64,000 nt of DNA, from positions 124,001 to 188,000 of the forward strand of contig DATLUQ010000013.1 of the NCBI GenBank assembly GCA_035533015.1. Direction: 5' to 3'. Shown piece by piece: positions 9,674 through 34,501 of the stretch. The stretch is from Gemmatimonadaceae bacterium (GTDB lineage Bacteria > Gemmatimonadota > Gemmatimonadetes > Gemmatimonadales > Gemmatimonadaceae). Numbering within the stretch: position 1 is the first letter of the stretch; every line of letters begins with the position of its first letter. The position numbers were made by a program, and so were the translations under genes. The notes beneath the pieces are model-generated. The model was not told where the DNA came from and made no database searches. It saw nothing but the letters and a program-made list of their open reading frames with translations.

Positions 9674-10452
9674 CGCGGCGCGAGATCGCCGGGGCCTTAT
9701 TCGCGATTGCCCTGCTGTGCGCGCCGCGTCTCGCTAGGGCGCAGGACACCAGCACGACGCGAATGCCGCCGGGCGACACCATGCCCCCGCCGCGCACGCT
9801 CCCCGTGAACGGCTCGCTGCTCCGCCCCGAGCATCTTCGCTACCAGATGAGCATCGTGTGGCCCGACAGCACGCACGCGATCGGAACGCGAATCGTGGAT
9901 GTCACGCAGAGCAGTTACGGTGCCTTTCCGGCCTGGCTGCTCGCCGAGCGGCGCGACGGAAGCGTGCCGTCCACCGACACGCTGTACCTGTCCTACGTGG
10001 ACCTGCGGCCGCTGCACTGGTCATCGGTGATCGGGCCCTCCCGTCTGGCGCTCGAGTTCACGGCAGACTCGATCTACGGGGCGACGAGCGGCCCCAGCGG
10101 CCACCAGAACATCGCCCTGCCGCGGCCCGGCGACCTGCTCGCGGGCGGGCCGATGACCGAACTCGTGCTTCAGCTCATGCCGCACGCGGTGGGGCGGGTG
10201 GACTCGGTGTCGGTGCTCGAGATCGACCTGGGGTCCCACCGCATCACGCCGGGGGCGCTCACCGTGGAGGGCGAGCAGGACGTGGACACCGCCCTGGGCC
10301 AGATTCACTGCTGGGTGATCTCGCTGAGCACCGCGGGGCGGACGGCCCACTTCTGGGTGGCCGAATCGAACCCCGTCGTCGTGCAGGTCCGCCAGGACGT
10401 TCCGGGACGCCCCGGGGCGGTGTTCGAGCAGCGGCTGATCGCGGCCAAGTAG
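9670..10452 (+). CDS. Secreted or periplasmic protein of unknown function
   Basis: A 260-residue protein with a clear signal peptide: basic start MTRR, hydrophobic core AGALFAIALLCA, and a probable cut after RLARA. The mature part is beta-rich and has no catalytic motif I recognise. The end of the protein (GQIHCWVISLSTAGRTAHFW followed by VVVQVRQ and FEQRLI) resembles the C-terminus of DUF3108-type envelope proteins, but only weakly. The ATG overlaps the ftsK stop (ATGA), so it is cotranscribed. A role at the envelope is inferred from the signal peptide only. Confidence 0.75.
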   Translation: MTRREIAGALFAIALLCAPRLARAQDTSTTRMPPGDTMPPPRTLPVNGSLLRPEHLRYQMSIVWPDSTHAIGTRIVDVTQSSYGAFPAWLLAERRDGSVPSTDTLYLSYVDLRPLHWSSVIGPSRLALEFTADSIYGATSGPSGHQNIALPRPGDLLAGGPMTELVLQLMPHAVGRVDSVSVLEIDLGSHRITPGALTVEGEQDVDTALGQIHCWVISLSTAGRTAHFWVAESNPVVVQVRQDVPGRPGAVFEQRLIAAK

Positions 10453-10478
10453 ACCGCCGGCACCGCAGCCCGGCGGTC
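10452..10478 (+). terminator. GC-rich hairpin just after the secreted-protein gene
   Basis: A perfect 9-bp stem, GACCGCCGG (10452-10460) pairing with CCGGCGGTC (10470-10478), with a 9-base loop, starts at the stop codon. No T-run follows, so it may stabilise the 3' end or act as a weak or Rho-assisted terminator rather than an intrinsic one. Confidence 0.45.
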
Positions 10479-10547
10479 CACAAGATTCTGCGCCGGCCGG
10501 CCAATTTCTGGTGATGATCTCCCGGATTTCGGCCCCAGATTGGCCCC

Positions 10548-23866: not shown

Positions 23867-24559
23867 TTGAGCCCCAAACAACTCGCCGAATATCTGCAGT
23901 TGTCCCAGCGCACGGTGTATCGGCTGCTGGAGCGGGGCGACCTGCCCGCCGTCAAGGTCGGCGGGCAGTGGCGCTTCCGGAAGGCGACCCTGGACGAGTG
24001 GCTGGATGTGAACATGCATCGCCTCGACGCCGACTCCCTGCAGGCCCTCGAAGGTGACGAAGCGTCCGGGCAGCCGGTTCCCGCCATCGCCGACCTGATC
24101 GCCCCGGACAACGCGCGCATCACCGTGCCTGCCGGTTCGCAGGAGACCGTGATCCGGGCATTCGTAGAGAGCGTGCGGTTCCCGGAGCCGGTGTCGCGCG
24201 ATCTCGTGTGCGAGCGCGTGCTCGAACGCGAACGGCTGTGCAGCACAGCGTTGTCAGGTGGGGTGGCGCTCCTGCACACGGCACGAAGCCGGCCGCGTGT
24301 GCTTCAGGCACACGATCTGGTGGCGATCGGTCGCGTTCAGTCGCCGGTGGAATTCGGGGCGTTGGACGGCAGCGTGACCGACACGCTCATTCTCGTGCTG
24401 GGGCGGAGCGAGCGCGACCAGCTCGTGCTGCTCGCCCGACTGACGCGGCTGTGCCAGGAGCCCGGTTTCCTTTCCGCGCTGCGTTACGCGACGGACGCCG
24501 CTCAGGTGATCGAGCTCGTCCGCCGTACCGCGAGCCGGCTGTTCGTCTCGGCTCAGTGA
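23867..24559 (+). CDS. HTH (excisionase/MerR-type) DNA-binding protein fused to a PTS EIIA domain, copy 1
   Basis: Residues 1-55 form a helix-turn-helix with winged end (SPKQLAEYLQLSQRTVYRLL, VKVGGQWRFRKATLDEWL). Residues about 70-225 form a PTS EIIA type-2 (fructose/nitrogen-type) domain; the expected phospho-acceptor is His137 in GGVALLHTARS, where the usual Pro before His is Leu. Such fusions would let the phosphotransferase system change DNA binding. No HPr or EI gene is in the window. TTG 23867 is the only normal start after the upstream stop at 23840. First gene of a probable nine-gene operon; the second copy follows after 16 bases. Confidence 0.85.
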   Translation: MSPKQLAEYLQLSQRTVYRLLERGDLPAVKVGGQWRFRKATLDEWLDVNMHRLDADSLQALEGDEASGQPVPAIADLIAPDNARITVPAGSQETVIRAFVESVRFPEPVSRDLVCERVLERERLCSTALSGGVALLHTARSRPRVLQAHDLVAIGRVQSPVEFGALDGSVTDTLILVLGRSERDQLVLLARLTRLCQEPGFLSALRYATDAAQVIELVRRTASRLFVSAQ

Positions 24560-24575
24560 CCGCCTCCGGATACCC

Positions 24576-25286
24576 ATGCAACTGACGCTCCGCCAGGTCG
24601 CCTCGTACCTCGACGTGCCCGAGGCCACGGCCCGCCGCTGGATCACGGCGCGGGGGCTGCCGGCGCACCGCGTGAACGAGCGGCTCTACTGCAACGCCAT
24701 CGAACTCTGGGAGTGGGCGGTGGAGCAGGGGATCCCGGTGTCGCGCAGCCTGCTCGAGCAGGCGCAGCGCGCGCCGGACGCGGTGCCCGCGCTGTCGGCG
24801 CTCATCGCGGAGGGGGGGGTGTACCGAGACGTCGGCGGAGCGACAAAGCCGGAGGTGCTGCGCCACGTGGTCGCGCTGCTGCCGCTTCCCGACGACGTGG
24901 ACCGGGAGTTTCTGGTCACCGTGCTCGAGGCGCGGGAAGCGATGGGATCCACCGGCATCGGCGACGGCATCGCCATTCCGCATGTTCGCAATCCGATTCT
25001 CTTGCACGTGGCGCGATCCTTCGTCGCCCTCTGTCTGCTCAAACAGCCGGTGGAGTTCGAGGCGGTGGACCGTCAGCCCGTGGGCGCGCTGTTCCTAGTG
25101 GTGAGTCCCAACGTGCCGGCGCACCTGCGGATTCTTGCCAAGCTCGGATTCGTGTTGCGCGACGTGGAGCTTCGGCGGTTACTGCGCACGGCTGCGGCGA
25201 CGGACGAGATTCTGGCGCGCATCTCGGCGTTGGAGGCGGGTTCCGCCTCGAGCGCGCGTCCGGACGCCACGCGGAGCGGAGCATGA
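24576..25286 (+). CDS. HTH DNA-binding protein fused to a PTS EIIA domain, copy 2
   Basis: Same architecture as the preceding gene: helix-turn-helix at 1-50 (LTLRQVASYLDVPEATARRW) then a PTS EIIA domain at about 80-220 with the canonical active-site motif GDGIAIPHVRNP (His136). The two proteins are clearly related but diverged, so this is an old duplication. Presence of the intact His motif suggests real phosphorylation. The tail (SASSARPDATRSGA) is disordered. The stop lies 7 bases before the HyfB-type gene, tying these regulators to the membrane complex. Confidence 0.85.
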   Translation: MQLTLRQVASYLDVPEATARRWITARGLPAHRVNERLYCNAIELWEWAVEQGIPVSRSLLEQAQRAPDAVPALSALIAEGGVYRDVGGATKPEVLRHVVALLPLPDDVDREFLVTVLEAREAMGSTGIGDGIAIPHVRNPILLHVARSFVALCLLKQPVEFEAVDRQPVGALFLVVSPNVPAHLRILAKLGFVLRDVELRRLLRTAAATDEILARISALEAGSASSARPDATRSGA

Positions 25287-25293
25287 GCCGGTG

Positions 25294-27282
25294 ATGGCGT
25301 TCGCCGCCGCGATCGGGTGTTGGGCCATCGGCGCTCTTGCGGCGCTGGTCGCGCGCGGGCGTTCCATGCCTGCGGCCCTCGGCGCCGCGGGGGCCGTGGC
25401 CGGCGGGCTCGCGGCGCTGACCGCCGGTGGCACGGTGCTGGCAGGCGGCGCCCCGCGCCTGTGGGAGGCGCCGTGGAGCGTGCCCGCTGGCGCGCTCGCG
25501 CTGCGCCTCGATCCGTTGGCGGCGGTCTTCCTGTTGCCGATCGCAGTCATCGGGGCGCTCGGCGCCGTGTATGGCGTGGCCTACCAGCGAGAACATGCGC
25601 CGGCGCGCTCGAGCGCGGGGTCGTTCGCGGCCTACAACCTGCTGCTGCTGAGCATGGCGCTCGTGGTCACCGCCGCCAACCTGGTGCTTCTGATCGTGGC
25701 GTGGGAATTGATGACACTGAGCTCCTGGGCGCTGGTCGTGGAGGATCACGATCGTGGCGGTGTGCGCGTGGCGGGGCTTCAATACCTGATAGCTGGCCAT
25801 CTCGCCACCGCGGCGTTGCTGCTCATGGCATTGCTGCTGGCAGGGGCCAACAACGGCTTCGCGATCGCGCCGCTCGCGGGTCCGGCGGCGGTGCCTGCGG
25901 GGGTGCTGTTCGCGCTGGCCCTCATCGGGTTCGGAACCAAGGCCGGGATCGTGCCGATGCACGTATGGTTGCCCGACGCGCATTCCTCGGCGCCTTCGCA
26001 CGTGTCGGCGCTGATGTCGGGCGTGATGATCACGATGGGTTTCTACGGGATGGCGCGGTTCTTCCCGCTGTTCGGAGCGCCGCCCGTGTGGTGGGCCTAC
26101 GTGCTCCTGGCGCTCGGCGCGGTGGGCACGGTCGGCGGGATCCTGTTCTCATTGGCACAGCGCGACGTGAAGCGGGCGCTCGCGTACTCGACGGTCGAGA
26201 ACGCTGGGCTGACGGCGCTTGCCATGGGTGTCGGGCTCCTGGGCACGTCGCTGCACGATCCCGTCCTGGCCGGGCTCGGCTGGATGGCGGCGTTGTTGCA
26301 TCTCTGGAATCACGCGCTGGCCAAGAGCCTGCTGTTTCTCGGGTTCGGCGCCGTCGCCCTCCGCGTCCACAGTCGGGAACTCGACGCCATGGGCGGAGTG
26401 CTGCGCCGCTGGAAACTGGTGGGCGGCGTGCTTGTGCTCGGCGCGGCGGCGCTCGCGGCGCTGCCCGGGCTCAACGTGTTCGCCGGTGAATGGCTCCTGT
26501 TGCGCGCGCTGCTTTCGGGAATTCTGAACCTCGCGGGGTTCGACCGCGTGGTGCTGCTGGGCGCCCTGGCCGCACTGGCGTTCGCGGGTGGGCTCGCCGT
26601 GGCGGGGTTCACGCGCCTCGTGGGCGTCGGCCTCCTCGGCAAGCCACGTTCACCGGAGGCGGCGGACGCGCGCGAACCGGGGTGGATGACGCGTCTGCCA
26701 ATCGTGGTGTTGGGTGCCGGGTGCGTTGCGATCGCGGCGGTGCCGAGTCGGGTGGTGGGTGTGTTGGCGCCGGCGGGTAGGGGCACGGCGCCGGGCGCCG
26801 ATGTCGCCGCGGCCGGCGCCGCGCTGCTCCCATTGACGGCGCTCCTGCCCGTGCTGGGCGCGTTGGCGGTGCTCGTCGCCGCGCTGCGCGCCGCATCGGC
26901 GCGGCGATCGCCGCGCCGCGCTGACGATACGTGGGGCTGCGGGTTCGCGGGTGCGACGCCGTCCATGCAATACAGCTCCACGTCGTTCGCGGGGGGGCTC
27001 ACGACGGTCATGCAGCCGGTGCTCCGCGCGGAGACGCGGCGGCAGGGCATGGCGGACGGGCGCGGGGTGTCGGGGTCGCTGTGGCCTGCGGCCGCGTCAT
27101 GGGCTTCGGCGACGGCGGACCGCGTGCTCGAAGAGGTCTATCGGCCGGTGTTCTCAAGTGCGGGGCGCGTGGCGGCGCGCCTGCGCGCGCTTCATCGGGC
27201 CCGGGTGACGACGTCCCTGCTGTACATGGTGGCGGCCGTCGCCGTGCTGCTCGCGCTGTTGTTCCGGTCGGGGCCGGGCTGA
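25294..27282 (+). CDS. hyfB: HyfB-like antiporter-type subunit 1 of an Ehr-like complex
   Basis: A 662-residue polytopic membrane protein of the NuoL/M/Mrp antiporter family, HyfB/HycC type. It contains the TM5 glutamate (LIVAWELMTLSSW), the half-channel motif HVWLPDAHSSAPSHVSALMS, RDVKRALAYSTVENAG, and the HyfB-type C-terminus (DTWGCGFAGATPSMQYSSTS and a final TM helix). At the position where HyfB proteins have Lys in VMVKTG it has Thr247 (GVMITMG). ATG 25294 is preferred; GTG 25291 is adjacent. It should form a proton or sodium channel in the membrane arm. Confidence 0.9.
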   Translation: MAFAAAIGCWAIGALAALVARGRSMPAALGAAGAVAGGLAALTAGGTVLAGGAPRLWEAPWSVPAGALALRLDPLAAVFLLPIAVIGALGAVYGVAYQREHAPARSSAGSFAAYNLLLLSMALVVTAANLVLLIVAWELMTLSSWALVVEDHDRGGVRVAGLQYLIAGHLATAALLLMALLLAGANNGFAIAPLAGPAAVPAGVLFALALIGFGTKAGIVPMHVWLPDAHSSAPSHVSALMSGVMITMGFYGMARFFPLFGAPPVWWAYVLLALGAVGTVGGILFSLAQRDVKRALAYSTVENAGLTALAMGVGLLGTSLHDPVLAGLGWMAALLHLWNHALAKSLLFLGFGAVALRVHSRELDAMGGVLRRWKLVGGVLVLGAAALAALPGLNVFAGEWLLLRALLSGILNLAGFDRVVLLGALAALAFAGGLAVAGFTRLVGVGLLGKPRSPEAADAREPGWMTRLPIVVLGAGCVAIAAVPSRVVGVLAPAGRGTAPGADVAAAGAALLPLTALLPVLGALAVLVAALRAASARRSPRRADDTWGCGFAGATPSMQYSSTSFAGGLTTVMQPVLRAETRRQGMADGRGVSGSLWPAAASWASATADRVLEEVYRPVFSSAGRVAARLRALHRARVTTSLLYMVAAVAVLLALLFRSGPG

Positions 27283-29246
27283 TGGCGTTCGTGGCATGGA
27301 GCATCGCCCTCATGGTGGCGGCCGGCGTGCTCAACGCCGTGCTGTGGCGACGGCCCGATCTTGCCGACGCGACGTTTCGTGTGGGCCTGTTGGGCGCCGC
27401 GGTGGTGGGGTGCATCCCCGCGGTGCGTGTGCTGGCTGGAGGTTCGGTGCCCGACGTTTCGATCGCGACGCAGATGCCGGGCGGATCGTGGGTGTTCGGA
27501 TTGGACGCGCTGTCGGCGCTGTTCCTGTTGGTGATCCTCGCCGTCGGTTCGGCCTGCGCGTTCTTCGGCGTGACCTACCTGCGGGCCGGAGCGACGCGGC
27601 GCGGGGCGCGCGCGTCGCTCTTCTTTGTCGCCACGCTCATGGCTGCACTGTCGGTGGTGGTGATCGCGCGGGCCGCGCTGCCGTTCCTGATCGCGTGGGA
27701 GGCCATGGCGCTGGCCTCGTACGCCGCGATCGTGCTCGATCACGGTCAGGCCGAGGTGCGCCGCGCAGGGATGCTCTATCTCGTGGCCACGCACGTCGGG
27801 ACGCTGGCGCTGTTCGGGTTGTTCGCGGTGTGGGGAACGGGGGCCCGCAACCTCAGCTTCGCGTCGCTCGCGGCGCGGCCGCTCCACGGTGTGGCACAGG
27901 TCGCCGTCCTGGGCGCGGCGCTGCTCGGCTTCGGCATGAAGGCGGGACTCGTGCCATTTCACTTCTGGCTTCCCGAAGCCCACGCTGCCGCTCCGTCGCA
28001 CGTCTCGGCCATCATGTCGGGCGTGGTGATCAAGATGGGGATCTACGGCCTGCTGCGCGTGAGCCTTCTGATGCAGGGGCCGCCCGCCTGGTGGGGGTGG
28101 CTGCTGCTCATGGCGGGCGCGGTCTCGGGCATCCTGGGCGTCGTGTGGGCGTTGGCCCAGCACGACCTGAAGCGGCTGCTCGCGTTCCATAGCGTGGAGA
28201 ACATCGGGATCATCCTCTTAGGGATCGGTGCCGGTTCGCTGGGCATCACGTACGGCCATCCGCTGGTGGCCGTGCTCGGCTTTGCCGGCGCGGCCCTGCA
28301 CACGGTGAATCACGCGCTGTTCAAGGGTCTGCTCTTTCTGGGCGCGGGTTCGGTGGCGCACGCGACCGGAACGCGTGAGATCGACCGCCTGGGCGGGTTG
28401 GCGCGGCGCATGCCCATTACCGCGATCACCTTCCTGTTGGGTTCGGCGGCGATCGTCGGGCTGCCGCCGCTCAATGGTTTCGTGAGCGAGTGGCTGGTGT
28501 ACCGCGCCCTGCTCGACGCGGGCCTCGTGGCCAGCACGGCGCGCCTTGCCGTGCTCGCTGTCGCCGTGCTGGGATTGGTCGGTGCGCTCGCGCTGGCGTG
28601 CTTTTCCAAGGTAGTCGGCGTGATATTTCTCGGCAGCCCGCGCGATTCAACCGTGTCCGTCGCGCACGAGTCCCCGGCCGGCATGACCGGGCCGCTCATC
28701 GCGCTGGCGGCGGCGTGCGCGGCGATCGGGCTGCTGCCGGTCCTCGTGGTGGCGCCGCTGCTGCGGGTGGGTTCGCTGGTGGCCGGTACGTCGCCCACCG
28801 CGGTGTGGCTGGGTGGCGCGGACCCCGCCGCGGGCGCCGTCACCTGGTTCGTGCTTGCATTCGCGGCGACGCTGGCGGTGGGCTTGGTGATGCGGTCGCG
28901 ATGGTCGGCGCGCCGGGGCTCCACGGTGGCCGGGACGTGGGGTTGCGCATTCACCACGCCGACGGCGCGGATGCAATACACCGCGTCGTCGTTCGCTGCG
29001 CCGCTGCTCACGGCCTATCGGAGCGTGGCGGGCCTCCACACCGAGCGCACGGCACTGGCATTGGCGACGCATGCGGCGGACCCGGTGCTCGACCGGATCA
29101 TGGTGCCGGTGTGGCACGGGATCGAATCGGCGGCGCGGCGGATCCGCCCCCTGCAGCGGGGCCGGCTGTCGCAGTACCTGCTGTACATCGTGGCGGCGCT
29201 GGTGGTGGCGCTCGGATACCTGATGCTCGCGGGGTGGATGTCATGA
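27282..29246 (+). CDS. hyfB: HyfB-like antiporter-type subunit 2 of an Ehr-like complex
   Basis: A 654-residue paralogue of the preceding protein with the same plan: TM5 glutamate in LIAWEAMALASY, HFWLPEAHAAAPSHVSAIMS, and here the conserved lysine Lys251 in GVVIKMGIYG is kept. The C-terminus repeats the pattern GTWGCAFTTPTARMQYTASS and ends with a TM helix. Start and stop overlap with neighbours (TGATG; ATGA), so translation is coupled. Two HyfB-type subunits plus HyfF give three antiporter-like modules. Confidence 0.9.
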   Translation: MAFVAWSIALMVAAGVLNAVLWRRPDLADATFRVGLLGAAVVGCIPAVRVLAGGSVPDVSIATQMPGGSWVFGLDALSALFLLVILAVGSACAFFGVTYLRAGATRRGARASLFFVATLMAALSVVVIARAALPFLIAWEAMALASYAAIVLDHGQAEVRRAGMLYLVATHVGTLALFGLFAVWGTGARNLSFASLAARPLHGVAQVAVLGAALLGFGMKAGLVPFHFWLPEAHAAAPSHVSAIMSGVVIKMGIYGLLRVSLLMQGPPAWWGWLLLMAGAVSGILGVVWALAQHDLKRLLAFHSVENIGIILLGIGAGSLGITYGHPLVAVLGFAGAALHTVNHALFKGLLFLGAGSVAHATGTREIDRLGGLARRMPITAITFLLGSAAIVGLPPLNGFVSEWLVYRALLDAGLVASTARLAVLAVAVLGLVGALALACFSKVVGVIFLGSPRDSTVSVAHESPAGMTGPLIALAAACAAIGLLPVLVVAPLLRVGSLVAGTSPTAVWLGGADPAAGAVTWFVLAFAATLAVGLVMRSRWSARRGSTVAGTWGCAFTTPTARMQYTASSFAAPLLTAYRSVAGLHTERTALALATHAADPVLDRIMVPVWHGIESAARRIRPLQRGRLSQYLLYIVAALVVALGYLMLAGWMS

Positions 29247-30166
29247 TGGCGTTCGTCGACCGGAGCGCGCTCGCGGCGCTGGCCGTCTTGTTGCTCGTGG
29301 CGCCGGCGCTTCCGGGGATCGCCATCAAGACCAAGTCGCTGCTCACGGGACGGCGCGGGGCGCCGGTGCTACAGTTGTATCGCGATCTGGCCAAGCTGGC
29401 GCGCAAGGGTTCGGTGTACAGCACCACCACCACGTGGGTCTTCCGCGCCGGGCCCGTGGTGGTGCTGGCGTCGCTTCTCGCGGCCGCGCTCTTGCTTCCG
29501 CTCAATGGCCGCGTCGCGCCGATTCATTTTGCCGGCGACCTCGTGGCGTTCGCGGGGCTGCTCGCCCTGGCGCGGTTCGCGCTCGTGCTCTCGGGCCTCG
29601 ACACCGGTTCCAGCTTCGAGGGCATGGGGGCGAGCCGCGAAGTCACGTTTGCGAGCTTCGCCGAGCCGGCGCTGTTTCTCTGCTTCGTTGGGCTCGTGCT
29701 GGTCACCGGGCACCTGTCGCTCAGCAACATGCTAGGCCCGGCGCTCGCCACGGCATGGCCGCGCGACACGGCCTCGCTGGTGCTGGTGGGGCTGGCGCTG
29801 TTCGTGCTCCTGCTCGCCGAGAATTCGCGCGTGCCGGTGGACGATCCGGCCACGCATCTCGAGCTGACGATGGTCCACGAAGTCATCGTGCTCGATCACA
29901 GCGGGCCCGATCTCGCGCTCATCCTGTATGGCAGCGCGCTCAAGCTCTCCATCTTCGCGGCGGTGTTGGTGAGCATGGCGGCGCCGCGCGGCGCGCTCCC
30001 GATGTGGGCGGGGTTGGCGTTGCTCGTCGTGGGGCTGGCCGTGGTGGCCGTGATGGTGGGCGTCGTCGAGTCGGTCATGGCGCGCCTGCGGCTCACGCGC
30101 GTACCGCAGTTGATCGTGGGCGCCGGGGCCCTGGCGCTATTCGGCATCATCCTCCTGCTCCGCTGA
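29243..30166 (+). CDS. hyfC: HyfC/NuoH-like membrane anchor subunit
   Basis: A 307-residue membrane protein of the NuoH/HycD/HyfC family, which links the redox arm to the antiporter arm. Visible are GIAIKTKSLLTGRRGAPVLQ (N-terminal loop), a glutamate-rich central loop (SSFEGMGASREVTFASFAEP) and the highly conserved ENSRVPVDDPATHLELTM with VHEVIVLDHSGPDLAL. About eight TM segments. Start is one of two adjacent ATGs (29243 or 29246). Confidence 0.92.
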   Translation: MMAFVDRSALAALAVLLLVAPALPGIAIKTKSLLTGRRGAPVLQLYRDLAKLARKGSVYSTTTTWVFRAGPVVVLASLLAAALLLPLNGRVAPIHFAGDLVAFAGLLALARFALVLSGLDTGSSFEGMGASREVTFASFAEPALFLCFVGLVLVTGHLSLSNMLGPALATAWPRDTASLVLVGLALFVLLLAENSRVPVDDPATHLELTMVHEVIVLDHSGPDLALILYGSALKLSIFAAVLVSMAAPRGALPMWAGLALLVVGLAVVAVMVGVVESVMARLRLTRVPQLIVGAGALALFGIILLLR

Positions 30167-30168
30167 CC

Positions 30169-30807
30169 ATGCAGACCAGCGCGGAACTGCTCCTCCTGCT
30201 CGTGGTGCTCACCAACTTCGCGGTGCTCGGCACCTCGCGGCTGCGCACGTGTATCCGCGCGGTGGCGGCGCAGGGCCTTCTCCTCGGCCTGTTGCCGGTG
30301 GCGCTCGCGTCGCACCTCACGTTGCACGTGGGGAGTCTCGCGGTGGGGACGGTGCTGGTGAAGGCGGTGATCCTGCCCTGGTTCCTGCTCTGGGCCATTC
30401 GCGAGGCGGCCGTGCGGCGCGAGGTGGAGCCGCTGGTCGGGTTCATCACCTCGCTGCTGCTGGGTGCGTTGGCGCTCGCCCTCGCGTTTGCGATCTCGGC
30501 GCGACTTCCCGCCGGCGACGTGCGCGAGCCGCTGCTCGTGCCCGTCGCCTTGGCCACGGTGATGATCGGATTGGTGGTGCTCACCACGCGGCGCAAGGCG
30601 CTCACGCAGGTCGTGGGCTACCTGATGCTCGAGAATGGCATCTATCTCTTCGGCCTCACGCAGACGGAGAGCGTGCCGTTCCTCCTGGAGCTCGGCGTTC
30701 TGCTCGACGTGTTCGCCGGCGTGTTCATCATGGGGATCGTGGTCTTTCACATCAACCGCGAGTTCGATTCGCTCGATTCGGCGCGGCTGACCGAGCTCAA
30801 GGACTGA
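30169..30807 (+). CDS. hyfE: HyfE/NuoK-like membrane subunit
   Basis: A 212-residue hydrophobic protein similar in length and order to HyfE, which contains a NuoK-like unit. Six or so TM helices; the region GYLMLENGIYLFGL carries the NuoK-type conserved glutamate, followed by LGVLLDVFAGVFIMGI. Two bases separate it from hyfC, and it overlaps the next gene by TGATG. Confidence 0.9.
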   Translation: MQTSAELLLLLVVLTNFAVLGTSRLRTCIRAVAAQGLLLGLLPVALASHLTLHVGSLAVGTVLVKAVILPWFLLWAIREAAVRREVEPLVGFITSLLLGALALALAFAISARLPAGDVREPLLVPVALATVMIGLVVLTTRRKALTQVVGYLMLENGIYLFGLTQTESVPFLLELGVLLDVFAGVFIMGIVVFHINREFDSLDSARLTELKD

Positions 30808-32246
30808 TGCGCCTGATTGCGTTGGTCCTACTCCCGGTGCTCGCCGCCGCGATCACCGGCGCCGTGCCGTCGCCGCGGGTGACGCGGTGGCGCGTCGCGG
30901 TGTTGGTCGGCACGGCGGCCGTGCATCTCGCCATCACCGCGACGTTGTGGGGCGCCCCAGGCGGGAGCGCGATCAACGGGTGGCTCGGCGACGATGCCCT
31001 CGGGCTCATCGTGCTCACGCTCACCAGCGTGCTGTTCTTCGTGACGGCGATCTACACCGTGGGCTACCTGCAGCGCGCGACGCCGCGTGGGGGCCGCGTG
31101 TTCGTGAGCGGCCTGCTCGGGTTCCTTGCCGCGACCACGGTCGTGGCGCTCAGCCAGCACCTGGCCATGCTGTGGGTGGGGCTCGAGGCGACGACCTTGA
31201 CGGTGGCGCCGCTCATCTTCCACCGGCACGATCGCCGGTCGTTGGAAGCCGTCTGGAAGTACCTCGTGATCTCGTCGGTGGGCATCGCGCTGGCATTGCT
31301 CGGGATGTTCTTTCTTGCGAGCGCGCAGCACGGCGTCACTGGCAATCCGCTGATCCTCGGCGACCTCGTGGCGCACGCTCGCCAGTTGCAGCCGGCGTGG
31401 CTGCGCGCTGCGTTCCTGTTCCTGCTCGTCGGCTTCGGCACCAAGATGGGGCTCGCCCCCATGCATACATGGAAGCCGGATACCTACGGCGAAGCGCCGG
31501 CCCTCGTGGGCGGGCTGATGGCGGGCGCGCTCACCAGTTGTGCGTTCCTCGGCGTCGCGCGCATCACAGAGATCACCATGGCGGCGGGCCTCGGCCCGTT
31601 CGTGCAGCCGGTACTGCTCGGGTTCGGGCTGCTGTCGCTGGCCACGGCGGCGGCGTTCATCATCGGGCAGGGGGATCTCAAGCGATTGCTCGCGTACTCG
31701 AGCGTCGAGCACATGGGCCTGCTGGTGCTCGGGCTCGGCCTGGGCGGCGTGGGCGCGTACGGCACCGTGCTCCATCTCGTGAACAACGGCCTCGCCAAGG
31801 GCTGGCTGTTCCTCGTGGCTGGCAACGTGGTGCTGGCCACCGGCACCTCGGCGGCCGCGGGCAATCGCGGACTCATCCGCACGCTTCCGGTATCCGGCGT
31901 GCTGCTGGTGGCCGGCCTGTTCGCGGTCACCGGCTCGCCGCCGTTCGGCTTGTTTCTCAGCGAATTCACCATCCTCCGCGCCGCCGTCAACGGCGGACAC
32001 CTGTGGATCGCCGTTGTCACGCTGCTGCTGCTCGCCGTGATCTTCGTTGGGATGGCCATGCTCATCCTGAACATGGCGCTCGGCGAACCCGAGCCTGGCG
32101 TGCCCGTGGTGCGCGAAAGCCCGTGGCTGGTGGCCGGTCCGATCGCGCTGGCGGGCGCGGTGCTGCTCCTCGGATTGTACATCCCGGCGCCGCTGCAGCG
32201 CGCGCTGGTGCACGCGGCCGCGGCGCTCGGCGGGAGGGCGCCGTGA
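30807..32246 (+). CDS. hyfF: HyfF-like antiporter-type subunit
   Basis: A 479-residue polytopic protein of the antiporter-like family, HyfF type. The TM5 glutamate lies in WVGLEATTLTVAPLIF, the half-channel segment in KMGLAPMHTWKPDTYGEAPA, and GDLKRLLAYSSVEHMG follows. The TM8 position that is Lys in other subunits is Ser (GALTSCAF), as is common for HyfF (polar, not Lys). Third antiporter-like subunit of the complex. Confidence 0.9.
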   Translation: MRLIALVLLPVLAAAITGAVPSPRVTRWRVAVLVGTAAVHLAITATLWGAPGGSAINGWLGDDALGLIVLTLTSVLFFVTAIYTVGYLQRATPRGGRVFVSGLLGFLAATTVVALSQHLAMLWVGLEATTLTVAPLIFHRHDRRSLEAVWKYLVISSVGIALALLGMFFLASAQHGVTGNPLILGDLVAHARQLQPAWLRAAFLFLLVGFGTKMGLAPMHTWKPDTYGEAPALVGGLMAGALTSCAFLGVARITEITMAAGLGPFVQPVLLGFGLLSLATAAAFIIGQGDLKRLLAYSSVEHMGLLVLGLGLGGVGAYGTVLHLVNNGLAKGWLFLVAGNVVLATGTSAAAGNRGLIRTLPVSGVLLVAGLFAVTGSPPFGLFLSEFTILRAAVNGGHLWIAVVTLLLLAVIFVGMAMLILNMALGEPEPGVPVVRESPWLVAGPIALAGAVLLLGLYIPAPLQRALVHAAAALGGRAP

Positions 32247-33754
32247 CAGCGTTCAGCGCGCTGGGCCTGCGCAATCGCCGCGCGGTGTCGTTCGAGGCCG
32301 TGCCGACGGAGTCTGTCGACGACTTTCGCCGCACCGTGATCGTGGCGGTGCGCGACGGCTGGCGGGTGGTCGCGCTGTTCGGCATGCCCGAAGGGAGCGA
32401 CCGGACGCGCATCGTCGCCGTGCTCGCCGACGACACGCGCGGCGAACTTGGCGCGACGAGCACGGTGGTCGGCGATCGCTATCCTGCGCTCACGCCCGAG
32501 TGCCCCCAGGTGCACGCCTTCGAGCGGGAGATCGCCGAGCAGTGTGGCGTGACTCCCGAGGGCCACCCCTGGCTGAAGCCGCTGCGCCGGCATCTGCCCG
32601 ATCATCGACCGCCGGCGCGCGCCGAGGTTGTGCTCGATCCCGAGCGCCATCCGTTCTTCCGCGTCGAGGGTTCCGAGGTGCACGAGGTGGCGGTGGGTCC
32701 AGTGCACGCTGGCGTGATCGAGCCGGGGCACTTCCGGTTTCAGGCCCACGGCGAGGAAGTACTGTTCCTGGAGATCATGCTCGGCTACCAGCATCGGGGT
32801 GTGGAGCGCCTGTTGGAGACGACGACCGCGGAGCGCGCCGTGCTCGTGGCGGAATCCATCGCCGGCGACACCGTGATTGGCCACGTGGGCGCCTACTGCG
32901 GCGCCATCGAGGCGCTGGCGCGTTGCCGGAAAACGCCGCGCGCGCAGGCGATCCGCGGCATCGCGCTCGAGATCGAGCGGCTGGCGAATCACATCGGAGA
33001 TCTGGGCGCCATCGCAGGCGACGTGGCGTATCAACCGGCGGCCGCCTATTTCGGCGCGCTACGGGGCGAATGTCTCAATCTGTTGATGACGGTGTCCGGC
33101 AATCGGTACGGTCGCGGGTTGATCCGGCCGGGCGGGGTGAGCTGGGACCTCCCGCCGGAGATGGCGGCCGAGATGCGTTCGCGACTCGAAGTGCTGCGTC
33201 TAGAATTGGAGCCGGTGGCAGCGCTGATGTTCGAGAGCGCGTCGGTGCAGGCGCGCCTCGAAGGGGTGGGGGCGGTATCGCACGACCAATGCATCGAACT
33301 GGGATTCGTGGGGCCGGTTGCCCGGGCGTGCGAGGTGGCGCGCGACGTGCGGCACGACCATCCGTACGGAATCTTCAGGTTCGCGCACATTCCCGTGGCT
33401 ACGGGATGGGCGGGCGACGTCCACGCGCGCGCGCTGGTCCGGTGGCACGAGGTGCGGCGCTCGCTGGAGTTCGCGATCGAACAGCTCGGCGCGCTACCTC
33501 GGGGCGAGACGCGTATCCCGTGTGGTCCGCTGCGCCCCAATGAACTCGTCGTGGCGTTGCAGGAAGGCTGGCGCGGCGAGTTGGCTCACGTGGTCGTGAC
33601 CGACGATCGGGGCGCGATCCGCCGCCATAAGGTGGTGGACGCGTCGTTCCACAACTGGCCCGCGCTGGCCGCGTCGATGCCGGGCAACCAGATCTCGGAC
33701 TTTCCCCTGTGCAATAAGAGTTTCAATCTCTCGTATGCCGGCCATGATCTCTAA
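32243..33754 (+). CDS. hyfG: HyfG/HycE-like large subunit lacking NiFe ligands (Ehr-like)
   Basis: A 503-residue fusion of a NuoC-like N-terminal domain (about 1-125) and a NuoD/hydrogenase-large-subunit domain (about 145-503, EIMLGYQHRGVERLLE). In true group 4 NiFe hydrogenases two CxxC motifs bind the metal centre. Here the first, expected as RxCGxC, reads SIAGDT at 205-210, and the second, expected as DPCxxC, reads DFPLCNK at 486-492. At least three of four cysteine ligands are therefore missing, so hydrogen chemistry is not expected. Architecture matches described energy-converting-hydrogenase-related (Ehr) complexes. Substrate unknown. GTG start overlaps hyfF stop. Confidence 0.9.
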   Translation: MTAFSALGLRNRRAVSFEAVPTESVDDFRRTVIVAVRDGWRVVALFGMPEGSDRTRIVAVLADDTRGELGATSTVVGDRYPALTPECPQVHAFEREIAEQCGVTPEGHPWLKPLRRHLPDHRPPARAEVVLDPERHPFFRVEGSEVHEVAVGPVHAGVIEPGHFRFQAHGEEVLFLEIMLGYQHRGVERLLETTTAERAVLVAESIAGDTVIGHVGAYCGAIEALARCRKTPRAQAIRGIALEIERLANHIGDLGAIAGDVAYQPAAAYFGALRGECLNLLMTVSGNRYGRGLIRPGGVSWDLPPEMAAEMRSRLEVLRLELEPVAALMFESASVQARLEGVGAVSHDQCIELGFVGPVARACEVARDVRHDHPYGIFRFAHIPVATGWAGDVHARALVRWHEVRRSLEFAIEQLGALPRGETRIPCGPLRPNELVVALQEGWRGELAHVVVTDDRGAIRRHKVVDASFHNWPALAASMPGNQISDFPLCNKSFNLSYAGHDL

Positions 33755-33787
33755 CGCCACGTGGCGCGCGCGCGCCGGAGAATGCCG

Positions 33788-34501
33788 ATGTTCGATCTGC
33801 TGAGAACCCGAATGGCGCAGGGGATGCGCACGTCGCCGTTCCCCGGGCGCGACGTGGAGTTTCCGGACCGGTTCCGCGGCTTGCCGGTTCTTGAAGCGTC
33901 GCCTGGTGGTGCGCCACTGGACGTCGGCGCTTGCCTGTTCAGCCCCGAGGAGGCCGGCACCGGCGCCGGCGGCACCGTGCGCTACACGGCGGACTACCGC
34001 ATGGCCGCGTCGAGTCGCGCGGCGCTCGTCTCGAGCACGGGGCAGGTGGAGCTCGCGGGGGCGCTGGACGCCGAGATGCGCCGGTTGTTCGGTCGCTCGC
34101 TCAAGCTCCGGTCCGTGGTGGCGGGTAGCTGTGGGGGCTGCGAAGGGGAACTCAACGCGATGAGCAACGTCGTGTTCGACATGGCGCGGTTCGGGGTGCA
34201 GTTCGTCGCCTCGCCGCGGCACGCCGACGGGCTCGTCATCACGGGCGCGCTGAATCGCAACATGCTCGCTGCCGTGCGGAAGACGTACGAGGCCACGCCC
34301 AGCCCGCGACTCGTGATCGCGGTCGGTGCATGCGCCATCGCGGGTGGACCGTTCGCCGGCAGCCCCGAGGTCGGCATGGATCCGGACCTGCCCATCGACC
34401 TGTACGTGCCAGGCTGCCCACCGCACCCCCTCACGGTGCTCGACGGTCTGCTGCGTCTCCTCGGCCGTATGCCCCGCGAACGCGTGCATTCGAGCGGTTG
34501 A
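33788..34501 (+). CDS. hyfI: HyfI/NuoB-like small subunit with degenerate HycF-like N-terminus
   Basis: A 237-residue protein. Residues about 100-237 are the NuoB/HycG fold with all four cluster ligands: Cys115 and Cys118 (GSCGGCEGE), Cys182 (GACAIAGG) and Cys210 (PGCPPHP), so one 4Fe-4S (N2-like) cluster should be present. Residues 1-85 look like a decayed HycF/HyfH ferredoxin subunit: MFDLLRTRMAQGMRTSPFP matches the HycF start, FRGLPVLE the FRGKP segment, and ACLFSPEE the second cluster motif with only Cys49 left. CGGAG-type Shine-Dalgarno before ATG 33788 fixes the start. Last gene of the unit. Confidence 0.88.
   Translation: MFDLLRTRMAQGMRTSPFPGRDVEFPDRFRGLPVLEASPGGAPLDVGACLFSPEEAGTGAGGTVRYTADYRMAASSRAALVSSTGQVELAGALDAEMRRLFGRSLKLRSVVAGSCGGCEGELNAMSNVVFDMARFGVQFVASPRHADGLVITGALNRNMLAAVRKTYEATPSPRLVIAVGACAIAGGPFAGSPEVGMDPDLPIDLYVPGCPPHPLTVLDGLLRLLGRMPRERVHSSG

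Follow-up and report, generated by a model that had tools for sequence, protein, structure and literature searches.

The window analysed here, a 64,000-nucleotide stretch of a Gemmatimonadaceae bacterium (NCBI GenBank assembly GCA_035533015.1, contig DATLUQ010000013.1, positions 124,001 to 188,000), contains an operon for a seven-subunit energy-converting-hydrogenase-related (Ehr) complex of the type that we call Ehr-A. Its large subunit is devoid of nickel-iron (NiFe) ligands, and its small subunit has lost the ligands of both ferredoxin-type clusters. The sequence suggests, with something close to an even chance, that the complex has had its usual electron input cut and works as an electron-independent cation/proton transporter linked to the phosphotransferase system (PTS). 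Ehr-A, like Ehr-B below, is a working label of the present analysis and not a published name. Ehr complexes without NiFe ligands have already been reported in Riflemargulisbacteria, Melainabacteria, comammox Nitrospira, and ammonia-oxidising archaea (PMC6349859, PMC10284858, PMC10432482). What is new is the loss of the iron-sulphur (Fe-S) chain by cluster sets; no account of such loss in Ehr was found in the searchable literature, but the original 2013 Ehr description lay outside that search, which leaves priority unsettled.

The source organism is a soil bacterium with a 3.03 Mb assembly that is 95% complete, and its closest relatives are Gemmatimonadota metagenome bins. The operon (23867–34501, plus strand) is densely packed, its genes mostly overlapping, and is ordered as follows, with motifs listed after the gene that contains them:

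23867..24559, plus strand: helix-turn-helix (HTH_17) and PTS EIIA type 2 regulator, copy 1, TTG start (Pfam PF12728 7e-18, PF00359 3.5e-16); the phospho-acceptor position reads VALLH
24576..25286, plus strand: HTH_17 and PTS EIIA type 2 regulator, copy 2 (PF00359 6.2e-24, PF12728 1.3e-7); phospho-histidine motif AIPHVR retained
25294..27282, plus strand: HyfB-like antiporter subunit a (Proton_antipo_M 1.7e-41; top NCBIfam match hydrogenase 4 subunit B)
27282..29246, plus strand: HyfB-like antiporter subunit b (Proton_antipo_M 2e-52)
29243..30166, plus strand: HyfC/NuoH-like membrane anchor (NADHdh, PF00146, 8.6e-30)
30169..30807, plus strand: HyfE (NuoK-containing) membrane subunit (PF00420; NCBIfam hydrogenase 4 membrane subunit 6e-26)
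30807..32246, plus strand: HyfF-like antiporter subunit (Proton_antipo_M 3.9e-45; hydrogenase 4 subunit F)
32243..33754, plus strand: HyfG/HycE/NuoCD-like large subunit, Ehr-A type (open reading frame, alignment, tree, and predicted fold)
32855..32872, plus strand: SIAGDT in place of hydrogenase RxCGxC (G208 and D209 invariant in Ehr-A)
33698..33718, plus strand: DFPLCNK, 5′ of the DPCxxC position and not at it (Cys490)
33725..33742, plus strand: NLSYAG, the actual DPCxxC position (canopy Asp replaced by Asn495)
33782..34501, plus strand: HyfI small subunit, a clusterless NuoI-like domain fused to a NuoB-like domain (PF01058 3.9e-28; alternative start 33761)
33866..34000, plus strand: remnant of the two-[4Fe-4S] ferredoxin domain in HyfI (one of eight ligand cysteines left, in DVGACLFSPEE)
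34130..34417, plus strand: N2-type cluster ligands SCGGC...GAC...GCPP in HyfI (Cys 117, 120, 184, and 212, counted from the 33782 start)

The NCBIfam matches to hydrogenase 4 subunits justify calling the operon hydrogenase-4-like, a term that an initial annotation of this DNA had used for the large subunit. A tRNA-Leu called by ARAGORN across the hyfF/hyfG junction (32221–32309) has no support from Rfam and is probably a false positive.

The large-subunit gene (32243–33754, plus strand) is a genuine open reading frame (ORF) with a GTG start, encoding 503 amino acids. The initial annotation placed SIAGDT at residues 205–210 and DFPLCNK (486–492) at the two ligand motifs of this subunit, RxCGxC and DPCxxC, and considered the NuoD/HycE framework intact. 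The first motif is as described, and alignment with E. coli HycE (MAFFT) places A207 and T210 opposite C241 and C244, and S497 and G500 opposite C531 and C534; neither ligand motif of group 4 [NiFe] hydrogenases is present. The second had been read nine residues out of register: DFPLCNK aligns with HycE DAPLIIG, and DPCYSC matches N495-L-S-Y-A-G500. The absence of the ligands stands despite this error. The framework is likewise intact, the best solved relative being HycE (7z0s_E; phmmer E = 1.6e-47, over most of the length), and an AlphaFold model (pLDDT 88.7) gives a TM-score of 0.87 to that structure over the whole chain.

Chance does not account for the missing ligands, because E204, G208, and D209 are invariant across 81 Ehr-A large subunits and the C-terminal block SDFPxCNKSxxLSY is near-invariant, with C490 in 78/79 (lost only in locus L024) and N495 in 76/79. 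The canopy aspartate (HycE D529) has been described as strictly conserved in complex I and hydrogenases (PMC9474812); its equivalent here is Asn495, and the same 76 of 79 relatives have Asn. The β1-β2 Glu (E160), the canopy Arg (R444), and the proton path H250-E403-R361 are retained in the alignment with HycE, and the quinone-headgroup His and Tyr of complex I are missing, I159 and G208 occupying those NuoD positions. The protein terminates at the HycE R537 position, without an extension past the DPCxxCxxR cleavage site; ending at the residue to which hydrogenases are trimmed, it therefore needs no maturation protease.

A single scan of a genome collection yielded 80 loci. The 81 aligned Ehr-A sequences agree to at least 97% at more than 100 positions, which cluster in EPGHFRF, LGYQHRG, E-S/T-x-A/C-G-D, and the C-terminal SDFPLCNKSFNLSYxGxDL; the Ehr-A C-terminal signature, ...SDFPLCNKSFNLSY(C/A/S)GxDL, stops where hydrogenases are cleaved in maturation. 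In a large-subunit tree (IQ-TREE, LG+C20), whose outgroups are few and include two long branches, Ehr-A forms a single clade (100/99) and joins its sister Ehr-B with 100/95 support. The clade stands apart from HycE, HyfG, complex I, and the true group 4 hydrogenases of Gemmatimonadota, which agrees with the earlier view of the complex as an Ehr type and not a hydrogenase. Ehr-A spans about ten phyla (Gemmatimonadota, Eiseniibacteriota, Planctomycetota, Verrucomicrobiota, Lentisphaerota, Elusimicrobiota, Acidobacteriota, Hydrogenedentota, Spirochaetota, and Melainabacteria) and is also found on a Variovorax plasmid, while Ehr-B (ADFPLCNKSFNCSYSGHDL and similar) occurs on rhizobial, Azospirillum, and Burkholderiales plasmids. 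Within Gemmatimonadota the distribution is patchy: 36 of 395 genomes (about 9%) have a match at E<1e-60, though a few of the weaker matches in this number are of other types. Eight Gemmatimonadota loci first taken for distant Ehr (L106–L113) proved to be true group 4 NiFe hydrogenases, reading DPCFSCTER wherever the motif is legible; they carry HyfB/C/E/F-like genes of their own.

In common with published Ehr, the window's complex has a group-4-like large subunit devoid of all four NiFe cysteines, operon-encoded membrane subunits resembling antiporters and NuoH, and no proven reaction; its lineage is additionally without ferredoxin clusters, so that the Fe-S chain usually running from a partner to the pocket is interrupted and only N2 is left. 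Such a chain is a usual but not a defining feature of Ehr, since the published definition rests on absent NiFe ligands.

In the HyfI of Ehr-A, a NuoI-like two-[4Fe-4S] domain is followed in the same chain by a NuoB-like N2 domain, and relatives in other phyla retain all 12 cluster cysteines. We take the N6a ligands to be the first three cysteines of motif 1 and the fourth of motif 2, and the N6b ligands to be the first three of motif 2 and the fourth of motif 1, following the Nqo9/NuoI structures; in complex I, electrons pass from N6a to N6b and on to N2. The window's HyfI has lost the ligands of both N6a and N6b and kept those of N2, and the Pfam Fer4 families that match intact relatives give no match to it. 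Among the HyfI sequences compared, 31 retain both clusters, 36 only N6b, 9 only N6a, and 38 neither, and 2 have no cluster at all, although these counts are partly non-independent, several genomes being present in two collections and the last two sequences being one genome twice.

The cysteines vanish in whole-cluster, interleaved sets and not motif by motif. Where the first three cysteines of motif 1 are kept and those of motif 2 are gone, the fourth of motif 1 is lost in 9/9 and the fourth of motif 2 kept in 9/9; in the reverse case the fourth of motif 1 is kept in 36/38. N6b is missing throughout a 37-sequence clade comprising Gemmatimonadota and one Eiseniibacteriota sequence (Shimodaira–Hasegawa-like approximate likelihood ratio test 100, HyfG tree), nine of which retain N6a, whereas the others, the window included, are without N6a too. 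On the complete HyfG tree, parsimony counts 2 changes in N6b against 9 in N6a. The losses in Gemmatimonadota are thus ordered, as read from the sequences: N6b went first and N6a several times thereafter, since without N6b it would be stranded and decay repeatedly. Elusimicrobiota (all but L031) and most Melainabacteria have lost N6a and kept N6b. The complete wire persists in the Gemmatimonadota genomes G001, G038, G043, G174, G222, and G307, three of which have Verrucomicrobiota-like copies.

The process has gone furthest in G283 (L024/L125), a 99% complete genome in which the ligands of N6a, N6b, and N2 are all gone, the N2 positions reading S/D/E/F. Its EIIA, HyfB, HyfC, and HyfE genes lie on one contig and those for HyfF, HyfG, and HyfI on another, with all frames open. 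It has the only Ehr-A HyfI without any cluster ligand and the only HyfG in which Cys490 is replaced (Ile). This joint change suggests that Cys490 and N2 are linked, but Ehr-B has Ile there with N2 intact.

All genes of the operon are under purifying selection, with ratios of nonsynonymous to synonymous substitution (dN/dS) of 0.07–0.36 for the seven subunits between the window and its close relatives L120, L010, and L006. The clusterless domain of HyfI has a dN/dS of 0.25–0.30, versus 0.12–0.14 for the N2 domain, and is still predicted by AlphaFold to be an ordered fold, although intact relatives were part of the input alignment. The Glu of transmembrane helix (TM) 5, the Lys of TM7, and the Glu of TM12 are retained in all three antiporter-like subunits: E138, K216, and E399 of HyfB-a, at the positions of NuoM E144/K234/E407; E140, K220, and E403 of HyfB-b, which also has K251; and E127, K213, and E386 of HyfF.

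A helix-turn-helix EIIA gene lies directly upstream of Ehr-A in 17 of the 50 loci scored, as well as in L021, where an overlapping ORF hid it from the count. Six phyla are represented, namely Gemmatimonadota, Eiseniibacteriota, Planctomycetota, Verrucomicrobiota, Spirochaetota, and, by one case, Elusimicrobiota. The phospho-His position of these proteins is retained, and the source genome encodes an EI-type protein. In proteobacteria, potassium transport is under the control of EIIA-Ntr (PMC9239096), and by that precedent an ion transporter is a plausible client of the HTH-EIIA proteins.

In the electron-independent transporter that we favour, a complex-I-type ion-translocating membrane arm would bear a NuoCD-like and a NuoB-like subunit. 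Electrons would no longer enter by the normal route, and transport would therefore be independent of ferredoxin-type input. The cytosolic arm would serve as a lid, coupling element, or sensor instead of an electron input, the remaining N2 cluster may be structural or sensory, and the two HTH-EIIA proteins could make its expression (or activity) depend on how far the phosphotransferase chain is phosphorylated. Tentatively, and short of an even chance, the lineage may exemplify a complex-I-superfamily machine without any electron transfer that evolved from a redox pump to become a gated, PTS-linked cation/proton transporter, with G283 as the endpoint. The initial annotation had proposed an ion-translocating complex with an unknown redox partner; the ion path in the three antiporter-like subunits agrees with its first half, but a partner presupposes electron entry, and both linking ferredoxin-type clusters are gone.

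Several observations weigh against an electron-independent transporter. Practically all wire-less sequences apart from that of G283 retain Cys490 and the ligands of N2, so N2 still has some role, possibly in redox, and the conserved pocket of E204, D209, C490, and N495 looks like a substrate site, for which pure antiport would have no need. The TM8 Lys is found only in HyfB-b and is missing in HyfB-a and HyfF, HTH-EIIA genes are missing from many Ehr-A operons (most of those in Elusimicrobiota, and those of Melainabacteria and Holophagaceae), and no transport measurement for any Ehr was found in the searched literature.

These points lend some weight to the main alternative, which we regard as a serious if lesser possibility: the complex would still be redox-driven, with a small substrate in the HyfG pocket beside N2, its sole cluster, or a donor docking straight on N2, and the reaction would drive ion pumping. 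The conservation of N2 and of the four pocket residues in wire-less members, the retained canopy Arg and proton path, and the precedent of the Pyrococcus sulfane sulphur reductase MBS, which performs cluster-based chemistry without a NiFe site (PMC7684303), are all in its favour. However, G283 has lost N2 and yet retains the operon and the remaining signature, the loss of N6a and N6b leaves no path from a surface donor, and the comparison of Ehr-A neighbourhoods revealed no conserved redox or dehydrogenase neighbour in the window's lineage. (Many short antisense "families" in that comparison are frame artefacts and were disregarded.) Only Elusimicrobiota, a lineage that lost N6a and kept N6b, carry a set upstream of HyfB consisting of a GlpA-like flavoprotein with a BFD [2Fe-2S] domain, a GlpB-like flavoprotein, and DUF1667 (13 loci, within L034–L060); it is a candidate electron donor there.

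Feeding of Ehr by a formate dehydrogenase or another dehydrogenase, as proposed for Riflemargulisbacteria (PMC6349859), seems improbable here. The source genome does encode a formate dehydrogenase whose gene has an in-frame TGA where selenocysteine usually stands (SCNRT[TGA]HAPSVV; L097, and L103 near 6660), probably a selenocysteine enzyme, but it lies on contig C28 and the Ehr operon on contig C13, its neighbours (a 2Fe-2S/NuoG-N-like protein, FdhD, and formate-tetrahydrofolate ligase, FTHFS) suggest a separate soluble enzyme, and the input clusters of the window's Ehr are gone. It is less probable still that the operon is decaying and heading for loss: the stepwise disappearance of cofactors and the patchy distribution in Gemmatimonadota would fit decay, but all subunits are under purifying selection, the overlapping genes are intact, and many divergent wire-less genomes have kept their operons intact, along with the invariant HyfG signature. 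An active [NiFe] hydrogenase with alternative ligands, which the presence of hyp genes in the source genome might suggest, is refuted at the sequence level by the HycE alignment and can practically be dismissed, as all four ligands are replaced, the maturation tail is absent, and hyp genes are not linked to Ehr-A.

The initial annotation had suggested a check for the absence of hyp genes from the genome, but such genes do occur: hypD shares contig C36 with the large and small subunits of a canonical uptake [NiFe] hydrogenase (L086, 5505–8484; RICGVC and DPCNAC). HypD is present in 17 of 31 Ehr-A genomes versus 9 of 20 Ehr-A-negative relatives, and 8 of the 14 Ehr-A genomes without it are at least 92% complete. 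The absence of hyp genes is uninformative as a test because they serve the canonical hydrogenase and do not track Ehr-A.

E. coli formate hydrogenlyases FHL-1 and FHL-2 (hydrogenases 3 and 4; HycE, HyfG) have counterparts of HyfB/C/E/F/G/I, the HycE fold, and much of the proton path; NiFe ligands, canopy Asp, the ferredoxin subunits HyfA/HyfH, and the maturation tail are absent in the window, whose HyfI, unlike theirs, has its own clusterless NuoI-like domain. MBS, too, is a complex I relative that has lost NiFe catalysis and has no quinone ligands. Two of its NiFe cysteines remain, as do the medial and distal clusters and a proximal cluster that is held by three cysteines and itself reduces polysulphide (PMC7684303), whereas the window's complex has lost the wire and its N2 has four cysteines with CxxC spacing in place of three. 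Respiratory complex I (NuoB/CD/H/I) is homologous in the Q-module and has the same C-terminal end position, but its quinone His/Tyr are replaced in the window, N2 has CxxC instead of the CC pair, and the operon is without N-module genes. Mrp Na+/H+ antiporters have homologous antiporter subunits and work without redox input, but they are without the NuoCD/NuoB arm for which the window has HyfG and HyfI genes.

It has long been asked how the antiporter arm of complex I is powered by quinone or hydrogenase chemistry. A lineage that dismantles its redox chain cluster by cluster under selection for the ion path would be a natural experiment on the parts needed for ion movement and, if the transport reading is true, could reveal what such machines do without redox chemistry. 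For some Ehr complexes it may be mistaken to look for a redox partner at all, and the cysteine sets of HyfI offer a simple marker for sorting redox-competent from wire-less members.

Two plasmid loci deserve mention. The Burkholderia cenocepacia plasmid NZ_CP073707.1 (L094, 10413–18139) carries an island for fluoride resistance that encodes a Cys-less HycE-like complex. The island also contains nine fluoride riboswitches, one of them (10413–10483) directly upstream of the complex's NuoH gene, together with genes for two pyrophosphatases, enolase, CrcB, a CLC channel, and MutS. The HyfI of the complex retains all 12 cluster cysteines. In contrast to this locus, the window yielded no fluoride riboswitch, and fluoride control of its operon was rejected. 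On plasmid 3 of Variovorax sp. PBL-E5 (L090, 8857–26737), Ehr-A and Ehr-B operons are neighbours, both separated and flanked by genes for universal stress protein and spermidine-synthase-like proteins.

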